From a virus: a stretch of 32,738 bases of DNA. The stretch lies in the IMG/VR virus record IMGVR_UViG_3300025626_000074, positions 1-32,738 of that record; one strand, given 5' to 3'. Shown one piece after another: positions 1 through 20,339 of this stretch. Position 1 is the first letter of the stretch. Every line of letters begins with the position of its first letter. The notes under the pieces were generated by a model. That model made no database searches and was not told the DNA's origin. It worked only from the letters and a program-made list of their open reading frames with translations. The translations under genes and the position numbers were made by a program.

Positions 1-217
1 CAACAAACTGTGTTTCTACATAGCTGTCTAATATAGGCCATAATTTCCAAGTGTTATCTTCCATAACTAATTTACGCAAGTCTTCTTTATTATTATCATT
101 TACTAGTCGAAAAATACTACTTAAATCTTTATCAGTATATGCTCTACGCAAATCTGCTAAATTACTTTTAGTAGGATAAAGTAATTCAAATCTATCCAAC
201 AATTCAAATGTTTGCAT
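1..217 (-). CDS. Hypothetical protein, N-terminal fragment (C-terminus outside window)
   Basis: An open frame starts with ATG at 217 and runs off the left edge after 72 codons without a stop. A good Shine-Dalgarno (GGGAG, 7 nt spacer) precedes the ATG, and the start overlaps the 3' end of the repeat-containing gene upstream by 14 bases, as at the other junctions of this operon. The visible peptide is charged and looks helical (begins MQTFELLDRFELLYP). I do not recognise the family. Its place as the thirteenth gene in the overlapping cluster suggests the operon continues beyond the window. Confidence 0.75.
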   Translation of the reverse strand, partial: MQTFELLDRFELLYPTKSNLADLRRAYTDKDLSSIFRLVNDNNKEDLRKLVMEDNTWKLWPILDSYVETQFV

Positions 218-2741
218 CAAACTGCTCCCTTAACCAATCAAAGTCATTTATTAATCGAAGGTCAACATCTTTAGACTGCCCAAACTGCATGCCTGCCTTT
301 GCTCCTCGAATCGCATGTTCACTAAAAGGCCTATCATGTCCTACAGTTGTCCAGATTTTAAGTCTTTCATTAGTTTCATCTTCTTTTTGTCTGTCAATTA
401 CTTTTGAACTTAATTTAGCACATTCTCTAAATGCACTTTTCCATGTTTCGAACGGCCCGGTGTTAAATGCAGTTATGTTTGCGATGCCAGGCATTGCATT
501 AAACTTTTTACTAATACTTGTAGTCATATCAGGTTTAGTTGTATCCATATCTAGTGTAAGTTGCCTTGGAAATAGTTTTAATCCACCGTATCCGTATACC
601 ATATCATTGATAGGATTTTGGCTACGCCACACAAACACATGATCATATTGCCAGGCGGCCACTTGATGGTCGAACTCAAAGTCATCCATCACGATTGCAT
701 CTCCGTCTACAATATAAAACATCGGTGTTGTACACTGCTTTGCAGCAGCTATGTGTGCTTGGTGTATACCTTTTACACCGTGTACACGCTTTGCATTAGG
801 AACCTTTTGTTTTAGAAGTTCATAGTTTTCGTCTGCATTAGGTTCCTGATAACTTATGAATACAACATCATGCTGTGCAGGAACGGATGCTACAATGTCA
901 TGTTCTTTTTTCTTGGCAAGGAATCTAAACATAAACTCTCGTTCTGAAATCTTTTGATTCTTGCTTGCAAGTATAACTCCGTCATGGTATTTTCTGTTCT
1001 TGAACACATGGTTTATATTTCTATTATATGTATCGTGATGAGAGAAATGCATATCGAATTTAAAATCGTCTTGTATAACAATATCGTCAAATGTAAGCCA
1101 AAACATTTCAAACTGCGATTTTTCTCTAGCTGCTAAGTAATCTTTGTATGTCGAAGTATGGAAGACTTCGAATGGTTTAGGCATACTTGCTACTGTATCT
1201 ATTTCTCGTTTATTAACAAGAAATCTATGTTCAAATTCTCGTTTAGATATAATTGCATGTTTGCTGCACAATATTATACCGTCGTAATAGTTGTCATTTT
1301 TAAATACATGATTTGTATTTCTTTCGTATTCTTGGTCATGACTGAAATACATCTCAAATTTAAAATCATCGCATACATCAACATCTGGCGGAATCATCCA
1401 AAACATTTCAGTTTTGCAATTTTCTATAGTATATAAATATGTCTCATAACTGTCGATTACAAATATATCATATTGTCTAGGCTCACTAACAACATCGTCC
1501 CACTGTTTTGCGTTTACTAAAAATCTATAATCAATTTGTTTTTTATTAAGTATTTTGTTTTTTGAACACAAGAATACACCATTATGTAATTTTTTATCGT
1601 CGACACTGTGTACAAAAGAATGATTTTCGTTTCTATCGTAACTGTTATGGTGACTAAAATAAAAGTTGTTTATGTATGTTTGATCATATTTTAAATTATG
1701 CGATACTGCCCAAAACATTTCTGTTGAGCTATTTTCAAATGCATGTTCATACTCTTCCCAAGTTTCTACATAGAATAAATCGTACGGCTTAGGATTACTT
1801 GCTACTATATCCCATTTTTTTGCATTTACAATAAATCTATGTTCGATTTCTCTTTTATTAATTGGTGATTGTTTACTACATAAAACTATTCCATCATATT
1901 CATTGTTATTCAAAAATACATGATTTGTTTTTCTATCATAACTGTTGTCAAAATTAAAGTATAAATTAAATGTAAAATCACTGCATACTGTTACATCGGA
2001 AGGCACCATCCAAAACATTTCAGTTTTAGAATTTTCTAGTGCATGTGTGTAATCATCGTACGAGTCAATATTAAATATATCATATTCAACAGGACCACTA
2101 GCAACTATATCCCATTCTTTTCTATTAACAGGAAATCTATACTCTATTTCTCGTTTTGTTAATGAAGCATGTTTGCTACATAAGAATACACCATTGTAGT
2201 AATTAGTATCGTCTATACGATGTATAAATGCGTGATTCTGTTTCCTGTCAATTATATCATGATGAGAAATATAAAAACTGTTGACTAAATTATTATCTAT
2301 TTTTAGGTTATTACTAGTCATCCAAAACATTTCAGTAGAGCTATTTTCTAGTGCATGTGTGTAATCATCGTATGAATTTATTTCAAATACATCAAAAGAT
2401 ATCGGTGTACTTGCTACAATGTCTACTTCTTTTTTCTTAGAAAAAATTCTATGCTTAATTTCTTCTTCAGTAATAGTAACATTTTTAGGCACTAGGATTA
2501 TACCGTCAAAAATATTATGATTTTTAAAAATATGTACTACATCTTGACTCCATTGATCTGCTTCATAATCAAAGTTGAAATTATCGCACACTTGAACATC
2601 GTCCCAGATAATCCAAAGCATTTTTGTCATAGAAATAGCACAAGCCATATCTACATTATTGGCATGTTTGAGCGTTGTGTACTTTTGTTTTAATAATCTA
2701 TAACGCTCCGACTCTGGTCCTATATAAACCATGTCATACAT
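204..2741 (-). CDS. Multi-repeat GT-A-like protein: six degenerate repeats plus one intact DGD domain
   Basis: This 845-aa protein has six tandem repeats (residues 1-115, 116-219, 220-319, 320-423, 424-523, 524-623) followed by a 222-residue C-terminal domain (624-845). Each repeat has an aromatic YD/FD start, a TEMFW-like strand, a D/N pair, NHVF or a variant, a DG(I/V)xLxSK strand and a final VAS. The C-terminal domain resembles the 309-aa protein at 9791-10720: it has the SYxEPNAxENY opening, a RVHGV segment, a DGD motif (679-681) and a GYGGLK loop. DxD motifs bind metal and nucleotide sugar in GT-A glycosyltransferases, so I infer a glycosyltransferase-like catalytic end; no repeat keeps the DGD. 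I start at ATG 2741, overlapping the upstream stop as TAATG with AAAGG six bases before it. The open frame extends to a TTG at 2756. Substrate unknown. Confidence 0.8.
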   Translation of the reverse strand: MYDMVYIGPESERYRLLKQKYTTLKHANNVDMACAISMTKMLWIIWDDVQVCDNFNFDYEADQWSQDVVHIFKNHNIFDGIILVPKNVTITEEEIKHRIFSKKKEVDIVASTPISFDVFEINSYDDYTHALENSSTEMFWMTSNNLKIDNNLVNSFYISHHDIIDRKQNHAFIHRIDDTNYYNGVFLCSKHASLTKREIEYRFPVNRKEWDIVASGPVEYDIFNIDSYDDYTHALENSKTEMFWMVPSDVTVCSDFTFNLYFNFDNSYDRKTNHVFLNNNEYDGIVLCSKQSPINKREIEHRFIVNAKKWDIVASNPKPYDLFYVETWEEYEHAFENSSTEMFWAVSHNLKYDQTYINNFYFSHHNSYDRNENHSFVHSVDDKKLHNGVFLCSKNKILNKKQIDYRFLVNAKQWDDVVSEPRQYDIFVIDSYETYLYTIENCKTEMFWMIPPDVDVCDDFKFEMYFSHDQEYERNTNHVFKNDNYYDGIILCSKHAIISKREFEHRFLVNKREIDTVASMPKPFEVFHTSTYKDYLAAREKSQFEMFWLTFDDIVIQDDFKFDMHFSHHDTYNRNINHVFKNRKYHDGVILASKNQKISEREFMFRFLAKKKEHDIVASVPAQHDVVFISYQEPNADENYELLKQKVPNAKRVHGVKGIHQAHIAAAKQCTTPMFYIVDGDAIVMDDFEFDHQVAAWQYDHVFVWRSQNPINDMVYGYGGLKLFPRQLTLDMDTTKPDMTTSISKKFNAMPGIANITAFNTGPFETWKSAFRECAKLSSKVIDRQKEDETNERLKIWTTVGHDRPFSEHAIRGAKAGMQFGQSKDVDLRLINDFDWLREQFDANI
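873..2741 (-). repeat. Six tandem ~100-codon protein repeats
   Basis: Unit boundaries by nucleotide are about 2741-2397, 2396-2085, 2084-1785, 1784-1473, 1472-1173 and 1172-873. Units 2 and 4 are 104 aa and share NGVFLCSK, a YRF segment and a four-residue insertion. Units 3 and 5 are 100 aa and share a VC-x-DF strand and EHRF. Unit 6 is closest to unit 5, and unit 1 is closest to the C-terminal domain. The alternation points to duplication of a two-unit block after an initial duplication. Confidence 0.85.
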
Positions 2742-4240
2742 TATAAGCCTTTCCAATCATTTATCATAGCTGTATATTCAGGAAAGGTTTGTTCAAAATT
2801 TGTATTTCTACGCTGATCATGTTGTGCCATGTGTAACACAAAGTTTTTTCGCTGTACACTGAGATTGTCTCTAGAAGCGGCTAAAAACATAGCCAAGTTG
2901 CGTTGAACCTTTTCAATTTCAAAATCATAGAAACCTGCAAAGTTATCTACATTTGAATTTTCTTTCATAAAGTCAAGTGCGTCTTCAATCATATAACTAT
3001 ATTCTACAGGAACAATATTCATACTTTGCCAATTTGGATCTCTTAGTATTGGCACATCAAACCATATACGCTGACGAGGATGTATTTCATAATCGTCATG
3101 TGTATTATACGGGTCGACAATAGGAATATATTTTATACCCTGTAACTCCTTACTATACATTGTACGCAATTCTAGCACATATGTCAAGAACTTTTTAAAG
3201 TTAGGAAGACTCAATGCATTAAAAGTATTAATAAATGTTAATGTTGTATTATTAGTTTCTGTTAGAAATCTATCAACATTATCCTGCATCAATTTGAAGT
3301 CTAATCCTGTTCTGATATATTCAGCTTGCTCGTCTACTGAGTCTACACTAACAAACAATGCTAGATTTTTAAGTGCAGGATTGACATACCAATTGTTTCC
3401 GCTACCAGGATTAAACTTTTCTTTGTCTTCCCATATCTGTATTTCTTCTAATTTTTTTGTTTTAGAAATAAACTTGTCAAATAATTCAGTCTTTGGCGGA
3501 CTCATATTTGTTGTAATACTCATCTCTAACGATGTATTAGGGTTTTCATAGATATAGTCCAATACTTTGAAAGTGTTTACGTCCATTAAAGGTTCGCCAC
3601 CTGTAATACGAAATACTTCTAATTTTTTATACAGCTCTGGCCACCATTGCCAAAATGCTCGCAAGTATGGATTCTCAGCTTGTGGCACTGTAAGTGGCAT
3701 GAGTCCTTGTTCTGCTAATGCAGTAGTATCGTTATGCTTTGTGTCTACAAGTTGGTAAGGTCCATGTTGTTTTATTTCATCATGCCACGCTGTACTTAGG
3801 TGCGGGCTACAATACATACACTTTAGATTACATGCTTGATTAAAATTAACTTCTACATATCTAGGAGTAATGTTACCTGTGTCAAGTACATCAATAATAT
3901 CACTTCTTGCATTTTGTGCCCAGTACTCTCCTGATCTATATATACGATCACTACGGCCGCCTTGATCTTCAATCTTCCAGCAATAAGTGCATCCGCTAGG
4001 ACGCTTGCCTTTTAACATTTGAGACCGCTCTGATTTCTTTTGTTTTGTATTGTGCAAGGCACTTGGTGTGTTTACAATTTCTTCCGCATCTATTTTGTGC
4101 AAAGGAGGGTGATAACAACTGTGTGTAGTACCATTTGTTAAGTGCATACTTACTTGTGCCCATTTTGCATAACACATGCTAGAACTAATTCTTTTTAATT
4201 GTTTTTCAGCAGTGTCTGCTGCATTATTATAGTCGCTCAT
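2741..4240 (-). CDS. Radical SAM protein with N-terminal cysteine-rich (twitch-like) domain, copy 2
   Basis: The 499-aa protein has a radical SAM core with the CxxxCxxC cluster motif at C137, C141 and C144 (CNLKCMYC), which holds the 4Fe-4S cluster that cleaves S-adenosylmethionine, and a GGEP motif at 214-217. N-terminal to the core are C23, H40, C42, C84 and C87 (HSCYHP, then CTYCW), enough to ligate an auxiliary Fe-S cluster. This fits the radical SAM family described with an N-terminal twitch domain. Such enzymes catalyse radical modifications of peptides or small molecules; the substrate cannot be told. It is a paralogue of the 454-aa protein at 8430-9794. It lies between an SGNH-type gene (14-base overlap) and the DGD repeat protein (1-base overlap). 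Cytoplasmic; no signal peptide or membrane segment seen. Confidence 0.88.
   Translation of the reverse strand: MSDYNNAADTAEKQLKRISSSMCYAKWAQVSMHLTNGTTHSCYHPPLHKIDAEEIVNTPSALHNTKQKKSERSQMLKGKRPSGCTYCWKIEDQGGRSDRIYRSGEYWAQNARSDIIDVLDTGNITPRYVEVNFNQACNLKCMYCSPHLSTAWHDEIKQHGPYQLVDTKHNDTTALAEQGLMPLTVPQAENPYLRAFWQWWPELYKKLEVFRITGGEPLMDVNTFKVLDYIYENPNTSLEMSITTNMSPPKTELFDKFISKTKKLEEIQIWEDKEKFNPGSGNNWYVNPALKNLALFVSVDSVDEQAEYIRTGLDFKLMQDNVDRFLTETNNTTLTFINTFNALSLPNFKKFLTYVLELRTMYSKELQGIKYIPIVDPYNTHDDYEIHPRQRIWFDVPILRDPNWQSMNIVPVEYSYMIEDALDFMKENSNVDNFAGFYDFEIEKVQRNLAMFLAASRDNLSVQRKNFVLHMAQHDQRRNTNFEQTFPEYTAMINDWKGL
2748..2754 (-). promoter_or_regulatory. Shine-Dalgarno that selects the start at 2741
   Basis: The minus strand reads GGAAAGG, then six bases, then ATG at 2741. 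This spacing favours the ATG over the in-frame TTG at 2756. It makes a TAATG stop-start junction with the radical SAM gene. Confidence 0.6.
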
Positions 4241-5129
4241 TTATCCACTCTGCTATTTCTTTATATCGATCTCTACCTGGATGGTTACGGTCTCTTGCCT
4301 CATTATCTATGGTTAAAAATTTATCTGCTCTTACTGCATGAGCAGCATCTTCAAAAAATGTAATATTCAACAGCTTTGATCTATCTTTACATAATGCTCT
4401 AATAGTATCTGAGTATGCTCGTGTTTGCATCATAGCATTTGTTGGATTATAAAAATTATTAAAGTATAAGTCTTTCTGTCTTACAGGATACAAACTATCG
4501 GAAGGAATTTTATCCTTATGGTTAACAGCCCAAGGACCTAAATGGAACAAATCTGATTCGTGAAAATATAAGTTCCTATCAACTGTTGTATAATTTGCAA
4601 CTACAGCATATGGTGAGTCAAAGCGATTGTATAATTTTGTTAATACAAATGCCATAAACTGATTGGAGGTGCCTCCTAAGCCTAAATTAACAACTTGTCT
4701 ACCACATAATGCTTCTAATTGTTCTGCTATTGTTTCAGAATCATCAACACCTACTCCGTAAGTGCAACTACAACCTAACAATACAATACATTCTTTCCAG
4801 TTTATTTCATGCCATTCATATGTTCTAAATCCACTAGCATTTCTTTTGTAATGTATCTTCTTGCTAAAATAGTGCCAGTCCTTGCCAAGATGGCGTCTTC
4901 TCTTTTTCCATTGGATTTCACTGTCGCCTTGTGAAAAATTATTAGTCGCGTTTCCGTTTTCATCCAAAGAAACAGGTAAAAATCTAGTAAAAGGATGATT
5001 TAATTCATCTCTTACATACTCGGGCCAATCAGGTTGCTGTCGAGATAATTCCCAATTAGGTTGTCCATCCTCTAAATATCTATTACGAAATTCATAGGTA
5101 ATCTTAGATACTTGAGTTGTACTATCCAT
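4227..5129 (-). CDS. SGNH/GDSL-type hydrolase or acyl-transferase, copy 2
   Basis: With start 5129 this is a 300-aa protein with the SGNH blocks in order: LLGCSCTYG (block I, likely nucleophile S121), GLGGTSNQF (block III-like, N146), and a C-terminal DRNHPG giving D280 and H283 as the usual DxxH pair. The family includes esterases, lipases and carbohydrate O-acetyl esterases or transferases, so removal or transfer of acyl groups on a glycan is a reasonable inference given the glycosyltransferase neighbours. The block I consensus GDS is here GCS. I reject the first ATG at 5177 because it would overlap the previous gene by 56 bases. The ATG at 5129 gives the operon's usual 8-base overlap and has AAGGAA seven bases upstream. 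Confidence 0.72.
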   Translation of the reverse strand: MDSTTQVSKITYEFRNRYLEDGQPNWELSRQQPDWPEYVRDELNHPFTRFLPVSLDENGNATNNFSQGDSEIQWKKRRRHLGKDWHYFSKKIHYKRNASGFRTYEWHEINWKECIVLLGCSCTYGVGVDDSETIAEQLEALCGRQVVNLGLGGTSNQFMAFVLTKLYNRFDSPYAVVANYTTVDRNLYFHESDLFHLGPWAVNHKDKIPSDSLYPVRQKDLYFNNFYNPTNAMMQTRAYSDTIRALCKDRSKLLNITFFEDAAHAVRADKFLTIDNEARDRNHPGRDRYKEIAEWINERL

Positions 5130-6150
5130 TTTTAAGTTCCTTAATGTGTTTGGCAAGTGCTGATGCAAATAATGCATGTGCCTTTTGTCCAGGATGAGAA
5201 CATGCTGTGATATAGCCTAATGGTGATCTATTTCCTTGGAATTGCCAATAAGTTTCTCTTTTATCTTCTACATCAGGTTCTTGATTAATTGCTAGATCAG
5301 CAAACGTTTCATACCCATAAGGATAAAACATTTTATCCCAGGGCCACATTTCTAAGTAATAATCTACAAACAAGTTTTTTGGTTCAAACATTCTTTTGTT
5401 TCTGTACTCTCCTAATTCGTTGCCACCGTGTCTGTCAACGTGCATTGCAAGTTCATTTTGAAAATACTCTTTATCGTATCGTCTATCAAATGCAGGAGTT
5501 ATAATTAACTTTGCATTATGTGCTTTACACCATGTGAGTAATTCTTGAACATGTGCAATTTGTTCTATAATAGCATGTTTATCAGAATACACTGATTCTT
5601 TGTATCCGTCCCAAAGTTTTTTTCTCGGACCGTCCGAGTCTGGAAGATTATTCGGCCACATGCATACCCATCTAAAATGTTCAGTACTTTGATCTTGAGC
5701 AAAGTCAAATCTTTCCATTCCGCTAGGACAATATATTACAATAATTTCTTTACAAAAATTCCAGTTAATATTGTTAAAATATAGTTCTTTTATACTTGCT
5801 CTATTACCGCAGCCTCTTTGACCAAGGTTAATCGGAACATATTTCTCTTTATACTGATGATTAGCTAACTGATATACAAAAGAATTTTCATATTCCATCA
5901 TAGTAAAATCTATTTTATTACTATGATTTACAGATAACGAAGGATACGAATCAAGTAATTGTTTTACATCTTTGTCATTTGCCTGTAGCGAAAGGACTTC
6001 GCCTAAATCACTAGCATTAAAGTTGTAATTATCAAAAATCTCATCATTAATAGCACCTTGGCCTTGTACAAACGAGCAGCCTATAGAAACAATTGCTCTT
6101 CCTTTTTTTGCCAAATCTTTATTAATTTGTTTTACTTGCGAACTAAACAT
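5122..6150 (-). CDS. SGNH/GDSL-type hydrolase or acyl-transferase, copy 1
   Basis: The 342-aa protein carries SGNH-like blocks: VSIGCSFVQGQG near the N-terminus (likely nucleophile S26), INLGQRGCGNR (block III-like, N116), and CSHPGQ near the C-terminus (H319). Like its neighbour it has GCS in place of GDS. A Trp- and Tyr-rich middle region (about 240-300) may shape the substrate site. The exact substrate is unknown; carbohydrate O-deacylation or acyl transfer is plausible from context. The start overlaps the preceding gene by 8 bases, with AGGA nine bases before the ATG. Two adjacent SGNH proteins suggest duplication and specialisation, though they are quite diverged outside the blocks. Confidence 0.65.
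   Translation of the reverse strand: MFSSQVKQINKDLAKKGRAIVSIGCSFVQGQGAINDEIFDNYNFNASDLGEVLSLQANDKDVKQLLDSYPSLSVNHSNKIDFTMMEYENSFVYQLANHQYKEKYVPINLGQRGCGNRASIKELYFNNINWNFCKEIIVIYCPSGMERFDFAQDQSTEHFRWVCMWPNNLPDSDGPRKKLWDGYKESVYSDKHAIIEQIAHVQELLTWCKAHNAKLIITPAFDRRYDKEYFQNELAMHVDRHGGNELGEYRNKRMFEPKNLFVDYYLEMWPWDKMFYPYGYETFADLAINQEPDVEDKRETYWQFQGNRSPLGYITACSHPGQKAHALFASALAKHIKELKNG
5137..5142 (-). promoter_or_regulatory. Shine-Dalgarno that selects the start at 5129
   Basis: AAGGAA on the minus strand lies seven bases before ATG 5129 and supports this start over the in-frame ATG at 5177. Confidence 0.6.
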
Positions 6151-7432
6151 AAAACATTTTCCTAAACTGTGTTAACATATTTATAGAAGGGGTTGTTGCT
6201 AACTTTTCTAAGTGATTTCGATTGTATCGTAATATATAAACCATACTTTTAAGCCAATCAAGTTTTTCTGTTGTAGTAAAATTATCAATGCGTTTAAGCT
6301 CTTTTACTATTGCGTCTAACCTATCAAATGTTTCTAAATTATCATAAGTTTCGTCTATGAAAGGATGAAACGTCATGTATCCTAATTCACGAAGTCTACG
6401 TAGAGATCCTTTATTACTATACAGTATAAACGGTTGTGAACATGCAATAGGCTTAAATGTTTTTTCACTTAAGAAAACAGTATGATTAGTATCAGGATCA
6501 CTGTAGTGTGCTTCACTTACAATAGATAACCATGTCTGTAACATGATATCGTCATTATACTTTATTAAAAATTGACCGCAATCTTGCGACTCGTATGTAT
6601 GAGCGTCATTTTCATTAGGCGGATACATAGGCAACATACCTTTGATTGAATTATAATCTTCTTCAGGTAAATGTTGTCCTTCCATAAATGCACGTTGCAA
6701 AGTAAATTCATTCATAGAATTAATACCTTTATCTAGCAACTGTTCTTTATGTAGTTTTGCAAATAGCCAAGCACGATGATTTCGAGCTCTTTTTTGTAGG
6801 CAATCGTATAATTTTATAGATTCTGCATTTTTTCTTTTGTATTTGAATTGTTGTTTTGCTGTAGGTAAATTACTTTCTGGTATCATACTAGCCATTGCTA
6901 TTTCAAAATGACTATAAGGAAAAACATACATCCGGACTTCTTTTAGTAATCCGTGATTAGTTGCCCATTCATTATATTGATCTGCACTATTCATATTGCC
7001 AGTTACATATATTATACGTTGTATAGGAATATCATATTTGTTACACTTATCATGAAACCATCCCCATAACCAATGTTCGTGATAACCTTCGTGTGATTGA
7101 TCTAATAGTAAGTATGCCTTGCCCCATTTTAAATCATACCGCTGTTGTTTAGTTAAGTGATCAAAAGGTGTTGTCTTGCTTCCGTTAGGTGATTCTGCCC
7201 AACCATCAGGACTATGTGCAACTCCAGATGCTATAATATACGGCTCGTCACTAATAAGAGGTGTAGTTCCAAATGTAATTTTTAAATTATGATGGCGTCT
7301 AATATATTTGTATAGCACAGTTACTAAAGGGCTAGGAGTAAATCTTTTGATACCAGACGGATTTACATCTGTGCAACTTATAAGATTATTAAATTCATTT
7401 TCGTCTATTATTTGCTCAAAAGTAAAATGCAT
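6143..7432 (-). CDS. Possible glycosyltransferase-like protein of unknown family
   Basis: The 429-aa protein has a C-terminal segment (about 322-340) reading LSEKTFKPIACSQPFILYS. It resembles the donor-site region of some phage and bacterial glycosyltransferases of the exostosin or fucosyltransferase-like type, where an S-E-K-x-x-x-x-I motif is followed by a hydrophobic strand. The N-terminal half has a Rossmann-like strand (IIYVTGNMNSADQY, about 140-153) and a His/Trp-rich stretch near residues 113-127. I am not sure of the family. It lies between the epimerase, with which it shares one base (TAATG), and the first SGNH gene. That placement agrees with use of the sugar nucleotide made next door. 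Confidence 0.5.
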   Translation of the reverse strand: MHFTFEQIIDENEFNNLISCTDVNPSGIKRFTPSPLVTVLYKYIRRHHNLKITFGTTPLISDEPYIIASGVAHSPDGWAESPNGSKTTPFDHLTKQQRYDLKWGKAYLLLDQSHEGYHEHWLWGWFHDKCNKYDIPIQRIIYVTGNMNSADQYNEWATNHGLLKEVRMYVFPYSHFEIAMASMIPESNLPTAKQQFKYKRKNAESIKLYDCLQKRARNHRAWLFAKLHKEQLLDKGINSMNEFTLQRAFMEGQHLPEEDYNSIKGMLPMYPPNENDAHTYESQDCGQFLIKYNDDIMLQTWLSIVSEAHYSDPDTNHTVFLSEKTFKPIACSQPFILYSNKGSLRRLRELGYMTFHPFIDETYDNLETFDRLDAIVKELKRIDNFTTTEKLDWLKSMVYILRYNRNHLEKLATTPSINMLTQFRKMFYV

Positions 7433-8433
7433 TAGATTAACTTATCTTTCCAAGTCTTTGGTGTCTTGTCATTAACAATTTCTAAAGGAAATGTATAATC
7501 AAACGGTTTTACTCCTCTGCGTCTAATATATTCTGTTGTGCGCACAACTGCTGTTTTAATATCTGTAGTAGTTTCATAGTCTAAAAGTTGTCTAGCTTTA
7601 TCAGCACTACACATTGCATGTTTTACTTCTCTAGGCCTATCATCCATGTGTATAGGCGCAGTGTTTATACCAGTTTGATTTGCTACTAGTTTTGCTAAAT
7701 CATTTATAGTAATAGTTCCTTCATCTGGTCCAATGTTAATAATTTCATTTACAATAGATCGATCTAAACTCATACGCTCCAAACAATTTACACAATCTGC
7801 TATATAGGAAAAACAACGTGTTTGCATTCCGTCGCCATATATAATAGCAGGTTTACCTTGTAAATTTCTGTTTATCATAATACTCATTACATTTCTAAAC
7901 GGATCATCATAACGCTGCCTCGGACCTACAATGTTGTGCGGTACTGCTATGTTCCACTCCATGCCATGTGTTTCACTAAGAGCTTTTAAAACATCTTCTC
8001 CTGCAACTTTTGCAATACCGTACGGGTCAACTGGCTTAGGTTGCATGTCCTCTGTAAAAGGTGCTTGCTGGTCACCGTACCGTGCCATAGATGTACAGTA
8101 CACAAACCGCTTTACATTATTTGCAAGAGCAGCACTAATAACACTTACACTTGCTTGAAATATATTTTTTGTTATAAAATCAGGACTTACGACACTAAGT
8201 CCTTCATGTGCAGTAGCAGCAGTGTGAACTACTATATCTACATCTTTCATTATTTCTGTCATGCGTGATCTATCACAACAATCTACTTTATATAGGTCGG
8301 CCTTCTCATGTACATTATCTTCATAGCCGCCTATAAGAGTATCGTTACCAGATACTGTATGTCCTAGTTCGATAAATCTATCTGCTAGATGGCTTCCGAG
8401 AAATCCAGCAATTCCAGTTATAAAAATGTTCAT
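7432..8433 (-). CDS. NAD-dependent epimerase/dehydratase (extended SDR, sugar-nucleotide epimerase-like)
   Basis: The 333-aa protein is a full-length extended short-chain dehydrogenase. It has the dinucleotide-binding GxxGxxG (GIAGFLG, 7-13), a catalytic Ser/Thr in CTSMARYG (114-115) and the YxxxK pair (Y138, K142 in YGIAK). Later NIVGPRQRYDDP and QTRCFSYIADC are typical of UDP-sugar 4-epimerases and related enzymes. It likely interconverts a nucleotide-linked sugar in the cytoplasm, supplying donors for the glycosyltransferases of the cluster. The precise sugar cannot be read, so I give no symbol. It overlaps the upstream radical SAM gene by 4 bases (ATGA) and the downstream gene by 1. Confidence 0.9.
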   Translation of the reverse strand: MNIFITGIAGFLGSHLADRFIELGHTVSGNDTLIGGYEDNVHEKADLYKVDCCDRSRMTEIMKDVDIVVHTAATAHEGLSVVSPDFITKNIFQASVSVISAALANNVKRFVYCTSMARYGDQQAPFTEDMQPKPVDPYGIAKVAGEDVLKALSETHGMEWNIAVPHNIVGPRQRYDDPFRNVMSIMINRNLQGKPAIIYGDGMQTRCFSYIADCVNCLERMSLDRSIVNEIINIGPDEGTITINDLAKLVANQTGINTAPIHMDDRPREVKHAMCSADKARQLLDYETTTDIKTAVVRTTEYIRRRGVKPFDYTFPLEIVNDKTPKTWKDKLI

Positions 8434-9794
8434 ACAGTATCTCTACACAAATTAAAAAAGTTTTCCATTTCAGGAAATGTTTCTAAAAAGTTTACATTGC
8501 GTCTACGATCATATTCAGTAAACCAATTATAAAAATCTTTACGTCCTTCTAAAATGCGCTCGTTGCTATAACTGGTTGTTGCAAAGTAATCACGTACTCT
8601 ACGAAAACGTTCATATTCTAAATCGCTAAATTTTCTTGTATCAGCATCGTCTTGGTTTGCTTTTATAAAATCTAAAATTTGATCCATATAAGGCAAAAAT
8701 TCTTCTTTAGGTAAAATATGCATATCGTATTGTAAAGGCTCCTTTAAGTAAGGAGTATCAAATCTAATACGTCTACGCTTACCATCATAAAATTCTTTGC
8801 GCCAATCTAACACCTTTTGCAAAAATAATGTAAAGTTTGTTACACTTAAAATGTTAAAAGTACACATAACTGTTAAGTCTGACTTTGTGCTATTAAGAAA
8901 GTTTTTCATGTTACTTTCCCATAGTTCTGTGTTTAACCCAGTACGCATATATTCTGCTCGTTTGCCGAAAGAGTCCATACTAGTATATACTTTAAACTTT
9001 TTAATCTTATTTCCTTCTATTAGTTCGTTTACATTATCTGCAAACTTACTAATGATACGAGGACTAAGACCCATGTTACTATTTAGATTAAGTTCTATAT
9101 GCGGACGTGGATTTGCTTTTAGTTCATCAAATATACGCCAAGTGCTTTTATGCATTAACGGTTCTCCGCCAGTAACACGTAATATGTTTAATGTTTTACT
9201 AAGTTCAGGCCACCAATCCCACCATGCCTGAATATAAGGATTATCGTCTTCTGCCATAGGTTTAAACCAGTCAATATCTAATGCATGATTGTTTACACCT
9301 TCAACTTTACCAAACTTCTTAATTTCAGCATGGTACGAACTACTTGCCATAGGATGACAATATCCACATTTAAAATTGCATTCATTACTAAATGCAACTT
9401 CAACATACTCTGGGTTTACATTAAAGTCCCAAGGATTGTCTAATATCTCTTTTACACGCTCAGGTTTATATATAGACTGGTTACGTATCATTCTGTCACT
9501 AATATGATCGTCTTTCATATCTTCAACGTTCCAGCAATACTGACATCCTACACAGCGTTCACCTATTAACATCTTAGCACGTTCTTTTTTCTTTTCTAAC
9601 GTGTTATGTAGTGCGCTTGGATTATTACGTATTTCTTCAATAGGTATATGATGCGGAGATGGATGATAACAACTATGTGTATCACCTGTATGCAAATAGA
9701 TTGTAACATGGTGCCATTTTGCTAAACAAAACGTTGGACTTATGTCATCCATTAATTCCATATTTTCTTTTATAAGTTGAGTTTCTGATTTCAT
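8430..9794 (-). CDS. Radical SAM protein with N-terminal cysteine-rich (twitch-like) domain, copy 1
   Basis: The 454-aa protein has the radical SAM cluster motif at C139, C143 and C146 (CNFKCGYC) and GGEP at 209-212. An N-terminal set of C23, C42, C81, C84 and C87 (HSCYHPSPHHI, then CVGCQYCW) probably holds a second Fe-S cluster. It matches the 499-aa copy through most of its length, including xSALHN, WWDWWPEL, the RxTGGEPLM strand, AEYMRTGL and the final RRxNF. It follows directly after the DGD protein (ATGA overlap) and precedes the epimerase (ATGA overlap). The function is probably radical-based modification of a peptide or sugar intermediate; the substrate is unknown. The start has no clear Shine-Dalgarno and probably relies on translational coupling. 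Confidence 0.88.
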   Translation of the reverse strand: MKSETQLIKENMELMDDISPTFCLAKWHHVTIYLHTGDTHSCYHPSPHHIPIEEIRNNPSALHNTLEKKKERAKMLIGERCVGCQYCWNVEDMKDDHISDRMIRNQSIYKPERVKEILDNPWDFNVNPEYVEVAFSNECNFKCGYCHPMASSSYHAEIKKFGKVEGVNNHALDIDWFKPMAEDDNPYIQAWWDWWPELSKTLNILRVTGGEPLMHKSTWRIFDELKANPRPHIELNLNSNMGLSPRIISKFADNVNELIEGNKIKKFKVYTSMDSFGKRAEYMRTGLNTELWESNMKNFLNSTKSDLTVMCTFNILSVTNFTLFLQKVLDWRKEFYDGKRRRIRFDTPYLKEPLQYDMHILPKEEFLPYMDQILDFIKANQDDADTRKFSDLEYERFRRVRDYFATTSYSNERILEGRKDFYNWFTEYDRRRNVNFLETFPEMENFFNLCRDTV

Positions 9795-10720
9795 TCTGGA
9801 TCAATTACAAATTGTTGATTAGGGTTTCTACTTGGATTTTGATATACTGTTTTAAAAAATTTACTTTGTTCAGCATCTAAAGGTTCAAGTGCTATAGGGA
9901 TGTCTAACTCTTGTTTTAGTTTATTACCAAGTTCTTCAATAGAGTCTTGCAGTCCTTCTATCGATACTTTTGGTTCGATTTCGTTCCAAAGACTATTTAA
10001 GTATTTAAAGTCCCTAACTTGTACATAATCCCAATCTGTACACATTGTTTTATACAGTCCTTCACGAGCTCCGTAAATTGCCCAACGTCCGTTTTCAACG
10101 TCAGCTCCCACCATTAGCCATATCCAAAGTCTATGCAAGTTTTTCCAATGTCCTTTAAGAAAGTCTTCTTGTGTAGGTTTGACGCCTTGGTCTAGTGTCA
10201 TTTTTACACCTTCACGAAATCCTGCTCTCCAAGCCTGCTGTGGAGTTGCATTATTATACACATTACTATAACAGCTATTTTGTTGAATGTATTTTAAATC
10301 CCAGCAAAAGTCTACTTGTGCATGTGGGTTGTCTGGATCTGCGTTTTCATGTGTACGCATGTTTAGTACATAATCTTTTGGCCAACATTTAAGTCCGCCA
10401 TTACCGTACAGTAATCCGTTAATAACATTCTTACCGCACCAACTAATAACACTATGTTCTAAGTCAGTATGTTCTCCGAAGTCTATTTCTTGTGACAGAA
10501 ATTCAGATATAATTTTATTATCGCCATCTACTGTAATAAATCTATCTGTTTCACTTAGTTCTGCACAGGCTTTGTGTGCAGCATCTGAACCTTCTACACC
10601 ATGTACACGTTTAGCCCAAGGAATTTTACTGCATAAGTCTGCGTAATTTTCTTCAGCATTTGGCTCATCGTAACTTAGATAAATGATATCGTAGTCTAAT
10701 ACTCTAAATTTTTTATTCAT
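9791..10720 (-). CDS. GT-A-like protein with DGD motif
   Basis: The 309-aa protein begins with a beta-alpha pattern (DYDIIYLSYDEPNAEENY) followed by KRVHGVEGSDAAHKAC and FITVDGDNKI, placing D65-G66-D67 after a hydrophobic strand as in GT-A glycosyltransferases. A YGNGGLKCWPK loop and a WRAGFREG helix follow. The same features occur in the C-terminal domain of the 845-aa repeat protein, so the two are paralogues. I infer a nucleotide-sugar transferase, but the family has no characterised member that I can name. The start at 10720 is supported by GAGG six bases upstream and an 8-base overlap with the preceding gene. Its partner downstream is radical SAM copy 1, with ATGA coupling. Confidence 0.65.
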   Translation of the reverse strand: MNKKFRVLDYDIIYLSYDEPNAEENYADLCSKIPWAKRVHGVEGSDAAHKACAELSETDRFITVDGDNKIISEFLSQEIDFGEHTDLEHSVISWCGKNVINGLLYGNGGLKCWPKDYVLNMRTHENADPDNPHAQVDFCWDLKYIQQNSCYSNVYNNATPQQAWRAGFREGVKMTLDQGVKPTQEDFLKGHWKNLHRLWIWLMVGADVENGRWAIYGAREGLYKTMCTDWDYVQVRDFKYLNSLWNEIEPKVSIEGLQDSIEELGNKLKQELDIPIALEPLDAEQSKFFKTVYQNPSRNPNQQFVIDPE

Positions 10721-11315
10721 TTGTTACCTCGTAAGAATATGTATCGAATCTTCTTATAGTATATACACTTAACGGCATTCCGTCAAACTCGTAATCTTCC
10801 GAAAACGGTAGTACAATATAAAACTCATTTCGTAATTGGTTAAGTGAGAAAGAAAGAGTTTTATGCAAAACATTAGGATTGTTTTTTTCTGTAATATGAA
10901 AATAACAATCTACATTTAATGTTACCTTTTGTTCGTTTAATTTTGCTTGTAATTCTTTGCCTATATAAAATTTCCAACATGTATTTTTTAAATCTTGTAT
11001 AATTTTTATGTCTGCATTTACATCGTCATTACATTCATATAACCAATTATTAATATTATACACGGCACTATCTAACACGTTTCGATCTAATTCATATAGT
11101 TTAGATTGAGTGTTATAAGTAACTTTTATATCAGTAATTGATTCTTCACCTGTAAGTATATCTTCAACATCTTCATATGTTGTTTCAATAGAAGGATTAT
11201 CATCTGGTATATCAGGATCATTTGTAACACTTATAATGCTACCTGTAACAGAATCAAAAACTACTCTATAACCAGTTGCTACTTTAGGTTTAGGTGCTTC
11301 CCATATTACAGACAT
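10713..11315 (-). CDS. Hypothetical protein, acidic, probably beta-rich
   Basis: This 200-aa protein has no recognised motif. The N-terminal part alternates hydrophobic and polar residues (GYRVVFDSVTGSIISVTNDPD, with a TG turn), like a short beta module of phage structural proteins, and is followed by an acidic stretch (about 33-62). The C-terminal half has strands such as FYIVLPF and a Cys-containing middle. It has GAGG seven bases before its ATG and overlaps both neighbours (10 and 8 bases), so it is expressed with the glycosyltransferases. It could be a small virion or accessory protein carrying the modification, but nothing shows this directly. Confidence 0.6.
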   Translation of the reverse strand: MSVIWEAPKPKVATGYRVVFDSVTGSIISVTNDPDIPDDNPSIETTYEDVEDILTGEESITDIKVTYNTQSKLYELDRNVLDSAVYNINNWLYECNDDVNADIKIIQDLKNTCWKFYIGKELQAKLNEQKVTLNVDCYFHITEKNNPNVLHKTLSFSLNQLRNEFYIVLPFSEDYEFDGMPLSVYTIRRFDTYSYEVTNE

Positions 11316-12139
11316 AATACATCCTCATACAATTTTAATATTTTTGTTGTAACAAAATTATTTTCTGTATAATGAAATATACCGTCTTGTTTATGATTAC
11401 CTATAATTAATTCTAGGTTAGGTTTAAGATAAACTCCTACTCGTTCTTGCCAAGTCTCTGTTATTGTGTTCCAACCTTGATTATGAGGTTTCATATGCGT
11501 AAAAGTCGGATATGTAGATTTTTTGTTTGTAATTTGTGTTTCACAATCTAATAATTTAGTTACAATAGCAGCACTAACATCCATGCTCATACGTTTAGGA
11601 TAATGTTCTTTTACATATTGTCCATAAAATAAATTCCAATTATTTGATACAAGTTCTAACCATTTATAAAAATTATGTGCAAAATCACATTTTTTAAAAT
11701 AATGTACACCTACATATATATCAGGAAGATTATTGCTACGAAATGCTTTTCTATAATATGTATCGTTAATTAAGTTACGCCGGTAGTCATAAACATTACT
11801 AACAAAATACATTTCATAGTTAGACAAAAAAGTCCACCAACTATCTATATTTTGTAATACTAGCATATCTGTATCCATTACAATAGTTTCATCGTAAGGT
11901 GTTACATGATATGCCTTCCATCTATTTTGTACTTTCCAGTCCTCTATTTTAGCAGTATCTTCCCAAGGTATAGGAATAATATGATCAAATAAATTTTGAT
12001 ATTTTTTAGGAACAGGATCATTAGTTACTATTGACACACCTGTATTGTTAGTTGCCTTTATACTCATTGCACAAAGACATGCTTGTGTAACATAATTGTC
12101 TTGGCTATTTTGTGCAACCATTAAAAATCCTTTAGACAT
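11306..12139 (-). CDS. GT8-like glycosyltransferase, copy 2
   Basis: With the start at 12139 this is a 277-aa protein. The pattern is that of a GT-A retaining family-8-like transferase: an N-terminal strand MSKGFLMVAQNSQDN, a helix, the strand VSIVTND, then ETIVMDTDMLVL with the metal-binding DTD at D89 and D91. Donor and acceptor are unknown. It is a close relative of the next gene upstream, and both begin MSKG. The ATG at 12154 is in frame but gives a longer overlap. The ATG at 12139 has AAAGGG six bases upstream and overlaps the previous stop by 8 bases, so I use it. Likely cytoplasmic, acting on a glycan intermediate. Confidence 0.75.
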   Translation of the reverse strand: MSKGFLMVAQNSQDNYVTQACLCAMSIKATNNTGVSIVTNDPVPKKYQNLFDHIIPIPWEDTAKIEDWKVQNRWKAYHVTPYDETIVMDTDMLVLQNIDSWWTFLSNYEMYFVSNVYDYRRNLINDTYYRKAFRSNNLPDIYVGVHYFKKCDFAHNFYKWLELVSNNWNLFYGQYVKEHYPKRMSMDVSAAIVTKLLDCETQITNKKSTYPTFTHMKPHNQGWNTITETWQERVGVYLKPNLELIIGNHKQDGIFHYTENNFVTTKILKLYEDVLCL

Positions 12140-12974
12140 TAATGACCCTTTCAAGACTAAATTTATTCATTACATGTACACTAGAATTTTGAAATCTAAT
12201 CGGAACATATTCTCCTAAGTGATCTTTCTTTTCAACTAAAAATAAAAAACGTTCATCTTGCAATTCTATAATTATATCTTTATCAGTAGTGTAAAATAGT
12301 TTTCCTGGCATTGATCCAGCAAAGTTACCAGATTGATATCCGTTCATTATATGGATAGCAACACTAAATGCATGATCATTTCTATATGTTACAGAATTAA
12401 TTTGATACACTGCATTATAATAACTCCAGTTTTCTTGTATATGTTTTATTAAATTAAAGAAAATATTGTTAGTTTCTGTCTTTCTAAAAAATACACAAGT
12501 TGCCCAATAAAAATCTACACTAGTGTCTGATACATAATCAAATTCTGTATAGTCTCTAAAATTTGCTAAATCATATGCATCTTTGTATATAAGAAAATCT
12601 AAATGCTGATCAAAACAATTATTTAATACGTTATCAGCAATTACAAAATCTGTATCTAATAATATAGTTTCAGTGTAAGGACTAATATCAAATGCTAGAC
12701 ATCTTGAATCATTTTTAAATTCTAAACGTTTTTGTGTAATACTGCCGTCATAAAATCTTTTAAGACTGTGAGTTTCTGACCAGTCAAGTTCAATTACTGT
12801 ATCAAATATATCTTTATAGTCTGGATATGCTTCCGCAAGGTAATCAAGACTGTCAGTTGCTACAGTAGTTGGTAGATTTAAATATTTACGTACTCGTTTA
12901 GCAAGAAAAATTGCTTGTTTAAGATAATCAACTTGTGAATTGTTTCTAGCAAACGTAAGGACACCCTTACTCAA
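12132..12974 (-). CDS. GT8-like glycosyltransferase, copy 1 (TTG start)
   Basis: The 280-aa protein has the GT-A features of its neighbour: the start SKGVLTFARNNSQVDYL, the strand TVATDS, ETILLDTDFVIADN with DTD at D107 and D109, a WATCVFF strand and a C-terminal SSVHVMNK resembling the HxxG-K end of GT8 enzymes. No ATG occurs at the right place; the frame begins with TTG at 12974. That start is supported three ways: a strong GGAGGG five bases upstream, an 8-base overlap with the previous gene, and alignment of the resulting MSKG with the MSKG of copy 2. The sugar donor is not readable. The two copies are tandem paralogues. Confidence 0.75.
   Translation of the reverse strand: MSKGVLTFARNNSQVDYLKQAIFLAKRVRKYLNLPTTVATDSLDYLAEAYPDYKDIFDTVIELDWSETHSLKRFYDGSITQKRLEFKNDSRCLAFDISPYTETILLDTDFVIADNVLNNCFDQHLDFLIYKDAYDLANFRDYTEFDYVSDTSVDFYWATCVFFRKTETNNIFFNLIKHIQENWSYYNAVYQINSVTYRNDHAFSVAIHIMNGYQSGNFAGSMPGKLFYTTDKDIIIELQDERFLFLVEKKDHLGEYVPIRFQNSSVHVMNKFSLERVINV
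12146..12151 (-). promoter_or_regulatory. Shine-Dalgarno that selects the start at 12139
   Basis: AAAGGG on the minus strand is six bases before ATG 12139 and lies inside the 3' end of the upstream gene. Confidence 0.6.
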
Positions 12975-13311
12975 TAATACCCTCCACAGATCTATTGTTC
13001 TTTAACTTTGTATATTCATTGAAATATTTGTTAGATGATTCAAAATACTTTGATAGTATTTCTTCTAAAAATGCTTTAAGATCTAAAATTTCAATCGGCA
13101 TGTTATTGTCATCAATTAATACAGTTGTAGTTTGCATCGACGATACAAGTGTATGACAAAAACTTATTAATTCTTGTGTGACTGTAAATTGCCCACCGCA
13201 ATAATAGTGAATAATATCTTGTTTAAATTGTTCTGTTAATACCCTTTTTTGATTGTTAAGGGTAACCATATAATTAGAAAAGTCTAATGCTTTTTCAAGT
13301 CTTTGGTCCAT
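12967..13311 (-). CDS. Small hypothetical protein, first gene of the operon
   Basis: A 114-aa protein, mostly helical in appearance (LEKALDFSNYM, LKAFLEEILSKYFESSNKYF), with a short YCGGQFTV break near residues 37-44. No family recognised. It is the promoter-proximal gene: the ATG at 13311 is preceded by AGGAG at seven bases and, about 25 bases further up, by the -10 of a sigma70-type promoter. It overlaps the GT8-like gene by 8 bases. A small assembly or adaptor role for the transferases is possible but unproven. Confidence 0.65.
   Translation of the reverse strand: MDQRLEKALDFSNYMVTLNNQKRVLTEQFKQDIIHYYCGGQFTVTQELISFCHTLVSSMQTTTVLIDDNNMPIEILDLKAFLEEILSKYFESSNKYFNEYTKLKNNRSVEGIIE
12980..12985 (-). 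promoter_or_regulatory. Strong Shine-Dalgarno for a TTG start
   Basis: GGAGGG on the minus strand lies five bases before TTG 12974. The strong site probably compensates for the weak initiation codon. Confidence 0.6.
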
Positions 13312-13335
13312 ACGAGCGCTCCTATAGTTAACACT

Positions 13336-13364
13336 AGTATATAACCATTATTTTGTTTTGTCAA
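13336..13364 (-). promoter_or_regulatory. Sigma70-type promoter for the accessory operon
   Basis: On the minus strand there is TTGACA (13359-13364), a 17-base spacer, and TATACT (13336-13341). This is a consensus -35 and a five-of-six -10 at the ideal distance. Transcription would start near 13329, giving a leader of about 18 bases with AGGAG before the ATG at 13311. It is the only strong host-type promoter I found between genes. An imperfect palindrome centred on GTTAAC (13322-13337) touches the -10 and could be an operator. No terminator hairpin is visible between the 324-aa gene and this promoter. Confidence 0.75.
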
Positions 13365-13377
13365 TAGATATCTGAGT

Positions 13378-14352
13378 TTATTGTAATGTAGTATCGTTAG
13401 TATATGTTGGTGTTGCAACTGCAACATACGATCCAGTTGCTCTATACTGACTTACTGTACTAGTTAATGTACTTCCAACATTTTCATCAACTGGGCCACC
13501 TAATCCTGTTTGGTCACCGCTATCATCGTCTCTAAAATAAATTCTAAACTGTAATGTATCAGTTCCTACTATTCTAGCTTCTACAATGTAATCGTTTTCA
13601 GCATATACACCACTACCTGTTTTTCTAAAAATTTGTTGATAAGTTGAAGTTATATTTGCATAACCGATAACCGAAGTAGTTCCTGTTCCAGTTGCAGTTG
13701 TGCCGCTACGACCAAACTTAATAGTACCCATGTTAGTTACCATATTATTCCAGTCATTAAATTTTGCTCCGCTGCCACTTGCAAACGAAGCATTAAAACG
13801 AATTTCACCGCCGGAGTTAAAGAAGTAACGCATATGATCTGCACCGCTTGCTGTATGATTAGCACCGCTTGTTGTCTTTGTAGATTGTCCACCTGGAAAA
13901 TTTACAGATACAACATGTTGAATAACATCTGGACTGTTGCCCCAATTAGTAGTTCTTGTGCTTGTAATTTTATTTTCAGCACTCATTTGGCCTGCTGCTG
14001 CTACAAGCCTATTTGTTTCTGTTAGTCCAATTACAGCGTTATAGTCATTGTGTCCTTTGACTGTTTCATTCGGACTGTTACTTGCATCTGCACCAATAAT
14101 TTCTGTAGCACTTAACTGTGCAATAGTTGTTGGCACAGTACCACTTTGATGAGTACGTGCATCAACTGTATCTGAATATAAATCATTCATATGTGATGCT
14201 AAAACAGTTTGTGTAATTGCTACTGATGATGATTGTATAGCTTGGCCATATCCGTAATCGCCGGTACCATTACCTAATACTTTTTGTATTCTTGTTTGCA
14301 GGTCATTATACTGAGCTGCTGTAATTATATCTCCGACGCTTACGGTTGACAT
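13378..14352 (-). CDS. Virion structural protein (marine T4-like type)
   Basis: The 324-aa protein is rich in Thr, Ser, Gly and Asn with few Cys, as in fibre or sheath-like virion proteins. It begins VSVGDIITAAQYNDLQTRI, has SHMNDLYSDTVDARTH (about 53-68) and YFFNSGGEIRFNASF (about 176-190), features I associate with structural proteins of T4-like marine phages. The C-terminal part alternates beta strands. Location on the particle is unknown; the neighbouring tail-fibre genes suggest the tail. The late-like octamer at 14375-14382 and GGAG nine bases before the ATG support expression with the structural genes. It is the last gene before the accessory operon promoter. Confidence 0.7.
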   Translation of the reverse strand: MSTVSVGDIITAAQYNDLQTRIQKVLGNGTGDYGYGQAIQSSSVAITQTVLASHMNDLYSDTVDARTHQSGTVPTTIAQLSATEIIGADASNSPNETVKGHNDYNAVIGLTETNRLVAAAGQMSAENKITSTRTTNWGNSPDVIQHVVSVNFPGGQSTKTTSGANHTASGADHMRYFFNSGGEIRFNASFASGSGAKFNDWNNMVTNMGTIKFGRSGTTATGTGTTSVIGYANITSTYQQIFRKTGSGVYAENDYIVEARIVGTDTLQFRIYFRDDDSGDQTGLGGPVDENVGSTLTSTVSQYRATGSYVAVATPTYTNDTTLQ

Positions 14353-14374: not shown

Positions 14375-14382
14375 TACTTATA
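14375..14382 (-). promoter_or_regulatory. T4-late-like promoter octamer for the 324-aa gene
   Basis: TATAAGTA on the minus strand differs by one base from the T4 late consensus TATAAATA. It overlaps the stop of the 487-aa gene and lies 22 bases before the ATG at 14352. Confidence 0.5.
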
Positions 14383-15865: not shown

Positions 15866-15873
15866 TATTTATC
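15866..15873 (-). promoter_or_regulatory. T4-late-like promoter octamer for the 487-aa gene
   Basis: GATAAATA on the minus strand is one base from TATAAATA. It lies just after the stop of the 601-aa gene and 24 bases before the ATG at 15841. Confidence 0.5.
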
Positions 15874-19736: not shown

Positions 19737-20339
19737 TTACCCCTCATTAAATCCTGTTAAACTTTGTATTCTTACAGTATAATCTACTTGCACTAATCTG
19801 TTTAATGATTTTTGTACAGGATGGAAAATAACATGAGTAATTAATTTACCTTCTCCGGATGCACTATAACTTTTTAATCCTAGTTCATCAAAAACATATA
19901 AACTTTCATTACTGTCAGTTGTATCAAATGCAGCCTGTGCAGATGGTTCACCATAATCTAGTAAACATGTAATGAACACATCAGTATAGTTAGTGCCATT
20001 TACATGTCTTGTTTCTATTTTGTTTCTAACCTTATCAGTATTTGATGGACTATCTGCAACTACTTTACTAAAGGTTTTATTATATAAACTTGCATTAGTT
20101 CCTGTACTATTAGGTGTTAAATATGTAATAACACCACTTGGATCTAAGTTAGTTCCGCCGTTGCCAAAGTCCATACTCCAAACAAATCCATTGCCTTGGT
20201 TAGCAATACTTTCTGCTAATGCAATACTCATATTTTCATAATGAATAGCATTACGTTTGTTAATCAAAATTTCACCAGATTCAGGATCGTGGATTTTGAT
20301 GTGTCCTTGGACCATTACTCCGTGTTCATCTTGCAGCAT
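19737..20339 (-). CDS. Virion structural protein, unknown position
   Basis: This 200-aa protein begins MLQDEHGVMVQGHIKIHDPE and includes INKRNAIHYENMSIALAESI, a combination I associate with structural proteins of marine T4-like phages. The rest alternates short strands (VFITCLLDYGEP, LYVFDELGL, KLITHVIFHPV), consistent with a beta-sandwich. No catalytic motif is seen. It lies between the giant structural gene and the collar fibre and has a late-like octamer about 30 bases upstream. A role as baseplate or fibre connector is possible from position only. Confidence 0.65.
   Translation of the reverse strand: MLQDEHGVMVQGHIKIHDPESGEILINKRNAIHYENMSIALAESIANQGNGFVWSMDFGNGGTNLDPSGVITYLTPNSTGTNASLYNKTFSKVVADSPSNTDKVRNKIETRHVNGTNYTDVFITCLLDYGEPSAQAAFDTTDSNESLYVFDELGLKSYSASGEGKLITHVIFHPVQKSLNRLVQVDYTVRIQSLTGFNEG

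Follow-up and report, generated by a model that had tools for sequence, protein, structure and literature searches.

The DNA analysed here is the whole of the IMG/VR virus record IMGVR_UViG_3300025626_000074 (32,738 bases, called the window below), in which all called genes lie on the minus strand. From position 13311 to the left edge it holds thirteen open reading frames (ORFs), named g1 to g13 in that order, which an original prediction had described as a glycan and radical S-adenosylmethionine (SAM) operon in the structural region of a marine T4-like phage, overlapping at every junction. ORF listing and translation confirmed this layout, with 13 minus-strand ORFs at the coordinates of Table 1 and 12 junctions that all overlap by 1 to 14 nucleotides (nt) (8, 8, 10, 8, 4, 4, 1, 8, 8, 14, 1 and 14 nt from g1 to g13, computed with internal ATG starts at 12139, 5129, 2741 and 217). 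Comparison with related viral loci showed that g1-g5 are a fixed head kept beside fibre genes while the genes downstream of them are a swapped and recombined tail, not a fixed set, and the block is probably a genuine pathway, so far unstudied, that decorates the virus fibres or some other surface.

The gene content also agreed with the earlier description, comprising the DxD proteins g2, g3 and g5, the repeat relative g12, the epimerase g7, the SGNH-like proteins g9 and g10 (by motif only) and the radical-SAM proteins g6 and g11; the possible further transferase is the candidate g8 and the three unknowns are g1, g4 and g13. The T4-like label was upheld by the gp23 capsid gene, present in 4 of 5 large relatives. 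Among the cassette proteins only g7 exceeds a Pfam cut-off and only g6 and g11 exceed an NCBIfam cut-off. No membrane segment was predicted in any cassette protein of the window and no flippase, polymerase, transporter, exporter or initiating lipid-carrier transferase family was found there by Pfam and membrane prediction, applied to the cassette only. As g13 runs out of the record, and the window is the whole record, the island is cut at that edge.

The run of overlaps is long (11 consecutive with a simple gene caller), yet dense packing as such is normal in these phages. With the same gene caller, a 236-kb and a 200-kb relative have overlaps at 50% and 48% of their same-strand junctions, in longest runs of 8 and 9. 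The overlap run was therefore rejected as proof of a special operon, being close to the genome norm.

Table 1. Coordinates of the cassette, the fibre block and associated sites in the window (aa, amino acids; GT, glycosyltransferase; nonsynonymous to synonymous ratio given as dN/dS)
Feature	Position	Strand	Description
g13	2..217	-	Protein start only, cut by record edge; homologues of 302-323 aa in relatives
g12	204..2741	-	Six degenerate repeats of ~100 aa and a C-terminal g5-like domain keeping DGD; longest ORF from 2756
g11	2741..4240	-	Second predicted twitch radical-SAM enzyme; NF033640, 315.7 bits
g10	4227..5129	-	SGNH-like hydrolase or O-acyl enzyme (putative); GCSCT block I and DxxHPG; longest ORF from 5177
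g9	5122..6150	-	SGNH-like hydrolase or O-acyl enzyme (motif only); GCSFV block I and HPG
g8	6143..7432	-	Candidate further glycosyltransferase; conserved R, E, K and G positions in 24 sequences
g7	7432..8433	-	NAD-dependent nucleotide-sugar epimerase/4,6-dehydratase; PF01370, 166 bits
g6	8430..9794	-	Predicted twitch radical-SAM enzyme (N_Twi_rSAM); NF033640, 312.2 bits, cut-off 170
g5	9791..10720	-	Strongly conserved DxD protein, distantly GT-A-like, new family
g4	10713..11315	-	200 aa, mostly beta, function unknown, fast evolving; constant position between g3 and g5
g3	11306..12139	-	DxD protein, glycogenin-like (GT8-type, GT-A); longest ORF from 12154
g2	12132..12974	-	DxD protein, weakly glycogenin-like (GT8-type, GT-A)
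g1	12967..13311	-	114 aa, function unknown, first gene of cassette, phage-only; in 77/77 relatives; dN/dS ~0.13
Sigma-70-type promoter-like site	13336..13364	-	TTGACA-17-TATACT at cassette head; 11/12 consensus matches
Putative fibre/virion protein	13378..14352	-	Candidate acceptor; Ser/Thr-rich (S+T 24%), Cys-free
Fibre paralogue	14378..15841	-	C-terminal match to Peptidase_G2 (self-cleaving chaperone)
T4-late-type motif	15866..15873	-	GATAAATA; upstream of fibre paralogue 14378-15841
Fibre paralogue	15874..17679	-	N-terminus matches same virion-protein PHROGs as neighbours
Fibre paralogue	17676..19733	-	Phage Tail Collar domain, PF07484, 46 bits
Conserved protein	19737..20339	-	phrog_11259; start of fibre block
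Giant virion structural protein	20372..32599	-	phrog_10938, E 8e-200; cut by record edge

Conservation of the unit and its promoter-like site

Relatives were collected by scanning viral contigs with g6, which gave 80 loci, and with an alignment of g5, which gave at least 595 confirmed places from which the best 80 were kept; profiles of each gene were then run over all collected loci. The counts below refer to 92 non-redundant g5 loci, and use those with at least 3.6 kb upstream (77) for upstream genes and those with 8 kb downstream (57) for downstream genes. In all 77 testable relatives g1, g2 and g3 stand in this order before g5, just downstream of fibre genes, and g4 is present in 73 of them; a homologue of the 13378-14352 protein lies upstream of g1 in 69/70 relatives and a fibre paralogue in 68/70. 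When the structural protein at 19737 was used as an independent bait, g1 was found in 49 of the 54 loci with enough sequence, and three of the five loci without it have a longer fibre array that places g1 outside the retrieved stretch. Both bait samples lean to close relatives of the window because only the best 80 matches were kept.

A twitch radical-SAM gene follows in 53/57 relatives but the other downstream genes are variable (g5-like in 36 of the 57, g8 in 34, SGNH in 22 and epimerase in 13). Synonymous divergence (dS) between the window and its relative L007 is 0.01 in g7, 0.04 in g10, 0.14 in g9 and 0.16 in g8, compared to approximately 1.0-1.2 in g2-g5, showing that the tail has been exchanged. 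Purifying selection was seen in all cassette genes tested (dN/dS mostly 0.02-0.4, up to 0.48 in g10). The expectation that the thirteen genes travel together thus held for g1-g5, which sit beside fibre genes in every checkable relative and were nowhere found scattered in related phages, and failed for the genes downstream. It is extremely improbable that there is no joint pathway and that a variable region gathers unrelated cargo beside the fibres: downstream genes do vary and recombine, as such a region would have it, but the order of g1-g5 is fixed, the genes are under purifying selection and the association of g5, g12-type and radical-SAM genes is repeated in phages and bacteria.

The original prediction had also left no gap for a promoter, which is correct within the block, but the 66-nt gap directly upstream of g1 (13312-13377) holds the promoter-like site of Table 1, which is conserved in relatives. 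Taking promoter sites as consensus matches, not mapped starts, a sigma-70-type site (at least 11/12 matches) was found in 53 of 85 non-redundant relatives (0.35% in shuffled sequences), nearly always ending 18-29 nt ahead of the g1 start codon, and the T4-late-type TAAATA stands at the matching place in 23 of the 85 (6.8% in shuffles), with one relative having both classes. In the large relatives G013 and G014, sampled sigma-70-type sites precede genes for a late sigma factor, SbcD, topoisomerase II, ribonucleotide reductase and some radical-SAM proteins, and (D)ATAAATA precedes those for baseplate, sheath, tube and other virion proteins. On a tree of g2+g3+g5 (99 rows; a quick tree in which some branches are long) the promoter class changes at least 4 times on starred branches, compared to 26.8 times in shuffles. 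The cassette head therefore appears to have its own promoter-like site, which would switch between an early-type and a late-type class. A role that works with early as well as late expression is more in keeping with the modification of virion proteins than with an early exclusion of superinfecting phages alone. In several loci (L065, L067, L079, L027 and others) the late-type TAAATA upstream of g1 is flanked by inverted arms, for example TAGCAG ... CTGCTA, which suggests a dyad around the late promoter.

Predicted enzymes of the head and tail

Within the head, D107 and D109 of g2 are invariant in an alignment of 21 sequences, and in g3 D96 is invariant and D94 nearly so (at least 90%). Like glycogenin, a GT8 enzyme, both have a DxD motif and g3 has profile similarity to glycogenin-1 (E 2e-4 against PDB sequences), which is weak in g2 (E 0.3), but neither has a Pfam GT8 match and so they are described only as glycogenin-like. 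In g5, D65, D67 and about 55 more positions are invariant in 26 sequences; a profile search of the PDB gave no credible relative of known structure. Its AlphaFold2 (AF2) model is confident (predicted local distance difference test (pLDDT) 86.9, predicted template-modelling score (pTM) 0.87) and the best Foldseek neighbours are the GT-A transferases ThuS, RmlT and a PBCV-1 capsid glycosyltransferase (E 3e-4 to 1e-3, probability 0.9-1.0), but with template-modelling (TM) scores of only 0.2-0.3, and thus g5 is labelled GT-A-like, and distantly so, from its model. The AF2 model of g4 (pLDDT 81, pTM 0.63) had no PDB match and a structure search returned uncharacterised phage proteins only, so that g4 was rejected as a known fibre or chaperone.

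In the tail, g6 and g11 are N_Twi_rSAM members by score and by their cysteines, with the cluster motif C139-C143-C146 (CxxxCxxC) and the N-terminal C23, C42, C84 and C87 all invariant in 17 sequences, and their activity is predicted from these features. The g7 protein passes the PF01370 cut-off and has the motifs GIAGFLG (GxxGxxG) and YGIAK (YxxxK). For g8 a search for its identity found no Pfam or PDB profile match that would name a family. The SGNH-like family of g9 and g10 has GCS and HPG motifs in most members yet no Pfam match, and g10 reaches only E 0.04-0.06 against the NCBIfam GDSL models. Proteins of the g12 type vary widely in length with their number of repeats (approximately 230 to 1388 aa), the longest being the homologue in L016 (15301-19467), which has more repeats; the repeats have lost DxD and are a possible binding ruler. 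The truncated g13 matches G001:94104 and G013:42154. An 808-aa ORF in L043 (8942-11368) joins a repeat transferase to a radical-SAM domain, but as the junction may rest on one extra base (an assembly artefact) the fusion was not used as proof; an 862-aa ORF in L080 (9989-12577) has two radical-SAM domains.

The window covers only the start of an island that reaches up to approximately 40 kb in large relatives. In G013 (275 kb) the cassette runs on one strand from 15.8 to about 57.7 kb with some 15 CxxxCxxC ORFs, and nine relatives of 122-275 kb have 21, 18, 17, 15, 13, 12, 9, 6 and 6 PF04055 matches per record (compared to 4 each in Phosso and Atu_ph07, 6 in Vibrio phage K566, 1 in 121Q and 0 in Vibrio phage 2.275.O). 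Genes for IscU and an A-type iron-sulphur (Fe-S) carrier adjoin in one radical-SAM-rich phage (G003:131731-132413), but IscU is present in 1 and A-type carriers in 3 of the nine large relatives, which are incomplete records, and so phage-supplied Fe-S assembly was rejected as a general feature.

Proposed fibre target and competing explanations

The best explanation, plausible although short of probable, is that glycans are tailored in the cytosol and used to decorate the fibre proteins encoded next door. The block would be the near end of a tailoring island that T4-like jumbo phages keep beside their fibre genes, in which the fixed head (glycogenin-like g2 and g3, GT-A-like g5) would start and extend a glycan and the swappable tail (twitch radical SAM, epimerase, SGNH, g8 and g12) would supply or modify unusual sugars. 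Every step would be cytosolic and the product would be put on fibre proteins prior to assembly, the likeliest acceptor being the Ser/Thr-rich 13378-14352 protein, so that tail swapping would alter the chemistry of the fibre surface. The giant virion protein upstream of the fibre block (4075 aa) matches the carbohydrate-binding family CBM_5_12 and contains a long coiled coil of the SLQSQ type.

The enzyme content is consistent with a glycan or glycopeptide pathway, as originally predicted, and the suggested fibre target is favoured only by the constant linkage, by the lack of membrane, flippase or polymerase genes in the window's cassette and by the late-type promoters which virion genes share with the cassette in part of the family (the 23 of 85 relatives above). 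The explanation as a whole also draws on the conserved DxD residues, the glycogenin-like g3 and GT-A-like g5, the seven-Cys radical-SAM enzymes, the purifying selection, the exchanged tail and the separate multi-radical-SAM cassette that the cultured phages Phosso and Atu_ph07 have in this slot. Several points weigh against it. Much of the enzyme set is also found, away from any fibres, in chromosomes of Bdellovibrionota, bacteria related to the predator Bdellovibrio, and most relatives have the early-type promoter at the cassette head, a less obvious choice for a step that modifies virions alone. Moreover g2, g8, g9 and g10 are tentatively assigned, by motif or weak similarity only, linkage by itself might stem from a shared variable region, and the glycan as product, the fibre protein as acceptor, the order of steps and the benefit are all what we infer.

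As the main rival explanation, the enzymes might instead alter the O-chain or another envelope glycan of the infected cell and so block co-infecting phages, which is how similar regions of pelagimyophages and cyanophages have been interpreted in print (PMC7029224, PMC7824862). Two observations are in keeping with this: in relatives, sites of the same sigma-70 class as the one ahead of g1 precede early-type genes, and a g5 homologue in Ruegeria lies near a GT4-like gene (identity by reading). We consider it somewhat unlikely, as the cassette of the window lacks a flippase, a polymerase, a transporter and an initiating lipid-carrier transferase as well as any predicted membrane segment, the invariant linkage is to fibre genes instead of early genes, and a late-type promoter in about a quarter of relatives would act too late for lasting protection of the cell.

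The strongest argument against a fibre-only function comes from bacteria. A g5 scan of a genome collection gave 26 loci, several being phage contigs binned into metagenome-assembled genomes (MAGs); nine of these (L112-L116, L118, L121, L129 and L133) have fibre-block neighbours that mark phage contigs and were not counted as bacterial. L135 is bacterial, lying beside genes read as succinyl-CoA synthetase and nucleoside-diphosphate kinase. In the Bdellovibrionota loci L122, L134 and L135, g5, a g12-type transferase, g13 and several radical-SAM homologues are close together (not all in each locus) with roughly 27-67% identity to the phage proteins, and therefore a core of the pathway exists without fibres; of the 144 genomes from this class, 11 contain a g5-family match. 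These three loci and L321-L325 are Bdellovibrionota chromosomes with dense radical-SAM clusters, few membrane proteins and enzymes common to the phage islands (up to 67% identity). None of the head genes g1-g4 was seen in the bacterial loci examined.

Such loci would be expected if the product were a small or diffusible glycoconjugate, or a peptide-like natural product, made in phages and Bdellovibrionota and unrelated to fibres. The sharing of g5, g12-type, g13 and several radical-SAM types between them, the abundance of radical-SAM genes beside few membrane proteins in the bacterial clusters and the amidinotransferase-like and ATP-pyrophosphatase-like genes in phage islands (read from their N-termini) argue for it. 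Nevertheless it is distinctly unlikely, since the phage head genes are absent from the bacterial loci examined and tied to fibre genes, and nothing recognisable as a precursor peptide, a ligase or an exporter turned up, in a survey that did not search very short ORFs or recognition-element (RRE) domains.

In cultured phages the corresponding slot is taken by a different cassette. Among deposited genomes, the 19737 protein is best matched in Sinorhizobium phage Phosso and Agrobacterium phage Atu_ph07, where a giant virion protein, the 19737 homologue and one fibre are followed by a tightly packed cassette (L085:22644-30793 and L086:23424-31073 respectively) of several radical-SAM enzymes and a cupin. 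These are SPASM-like enzymes with a relationship to peptide maturases and with scores under the curated cut-offs, and a neighbouring protein of 296-306 aa ends in CHxSCHxSCHxSRSRR. This protein is possibly a radical-SAM-modified virion protein, and its motif occurs in one more contig (L240). No gene of the two cassettes has homology to g1-g5 of the window and so the slot after the fibre gene hosts different, unrelated modification cassettes. The enzymes and the CHxS-tailed protein in this slot would suit direct modification of fibre or virion polypeptides by the radical-SAM enzymes, in the manner of ribosomally synthesised and post-translationally modified peptides (RiPPs), with sugars secondary. 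For the window this is very unlikely and a RiPP-maturase role was rejected, as none of its fibre-block proteins inspected has a Cys/His-rich tail, the 13378-14352 protein has no Cys at all and its radical-SAM enzymes are of the twitch N_Twi family, not SPASM.

Known systems and wider meaning

Cassettes of transferase and radical-SAM genes linked to fibres in marine T4-like phages are already published, and what is new here is the families, architecture, regulation and distribution. The host recognition clusters of pelagimyophages hold fibres, GT8 transferases and radical-SAM cassettes and were read as serving O-chain modification (Zaragoza-Solas 2020, PMC7029224); the window likewise has tail fibres, GT8-type transferases and radical-SAM genes inside a structural region, as part of a large variable island. 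It differs from the published description of those clusters by the fixed g1-g5 head, its own class-switching promoter-like site, the g5/g12 GT-A-like family, up to 21 radical-SAM genes per record and the chromosomal counterparts. The T4-like environmental genome TARA_ERS488813_N000010 resembles the relatives in its many radical-SAM genes (12, with an Fe-S carrier; Nishimura 2017, PMC5332604), and Fe-S carriers recur in 3/9 of our large relatives, but in the part of that paper covered here the location, partners and product of the genes are not analysed. Capsular or O-antigen glycan clusters of jumbo cyanophages, read as superinfection exclusion (Iyer 2021, PMC7824862), share glycosyltransferases, NAD epimerases and variability between relatives with the cassette, but carry sugar kinases and nucleotidyltransferases, and radical SAM is unmentioned in the main text of that paper. 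The Atu_ph07/Phosso cassette shares the position after the fibre gene, several radical-SAM enzymes and tight packing with the window, but has other radical-SAM families, the CHxS-tailed protein and no g1-g5. The literature covered, from which most subscription journals are missing, gave no report of g5-type proteins, of the constant head, of the change in promoter class or of the counterpart in Bdellovibrionota.

It is possible, although we hold the idea with some doubt, that an undescribed glycoconjugate-tailoring system, pairing GT-A-like g5/g12 proteins with batteries of twitch radical-SAM enzymes, is common to T4-like jumbo phages and Bdellovibrionota, and that in the phages the fixed head bolts it to the tail-fibre operon, where it has been repeatedly rewired between early and late expression. 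Large aquatic phages give up to tens of kb beside their host-recognition genes to radical-SAM and transferase enzymes, and relatives of g5 stand at the 595 or more places in viral contigs noted above, yet g5 has no match among 50,697 deposited phage genomes. A possible way into this system in the laboratory is offered by the counterparts in Bdellovibrionota and in Phosso, and the identity of the product would tell chemical diversification of the fibres from remodelling of the host surface or synthesis of a metabolite.

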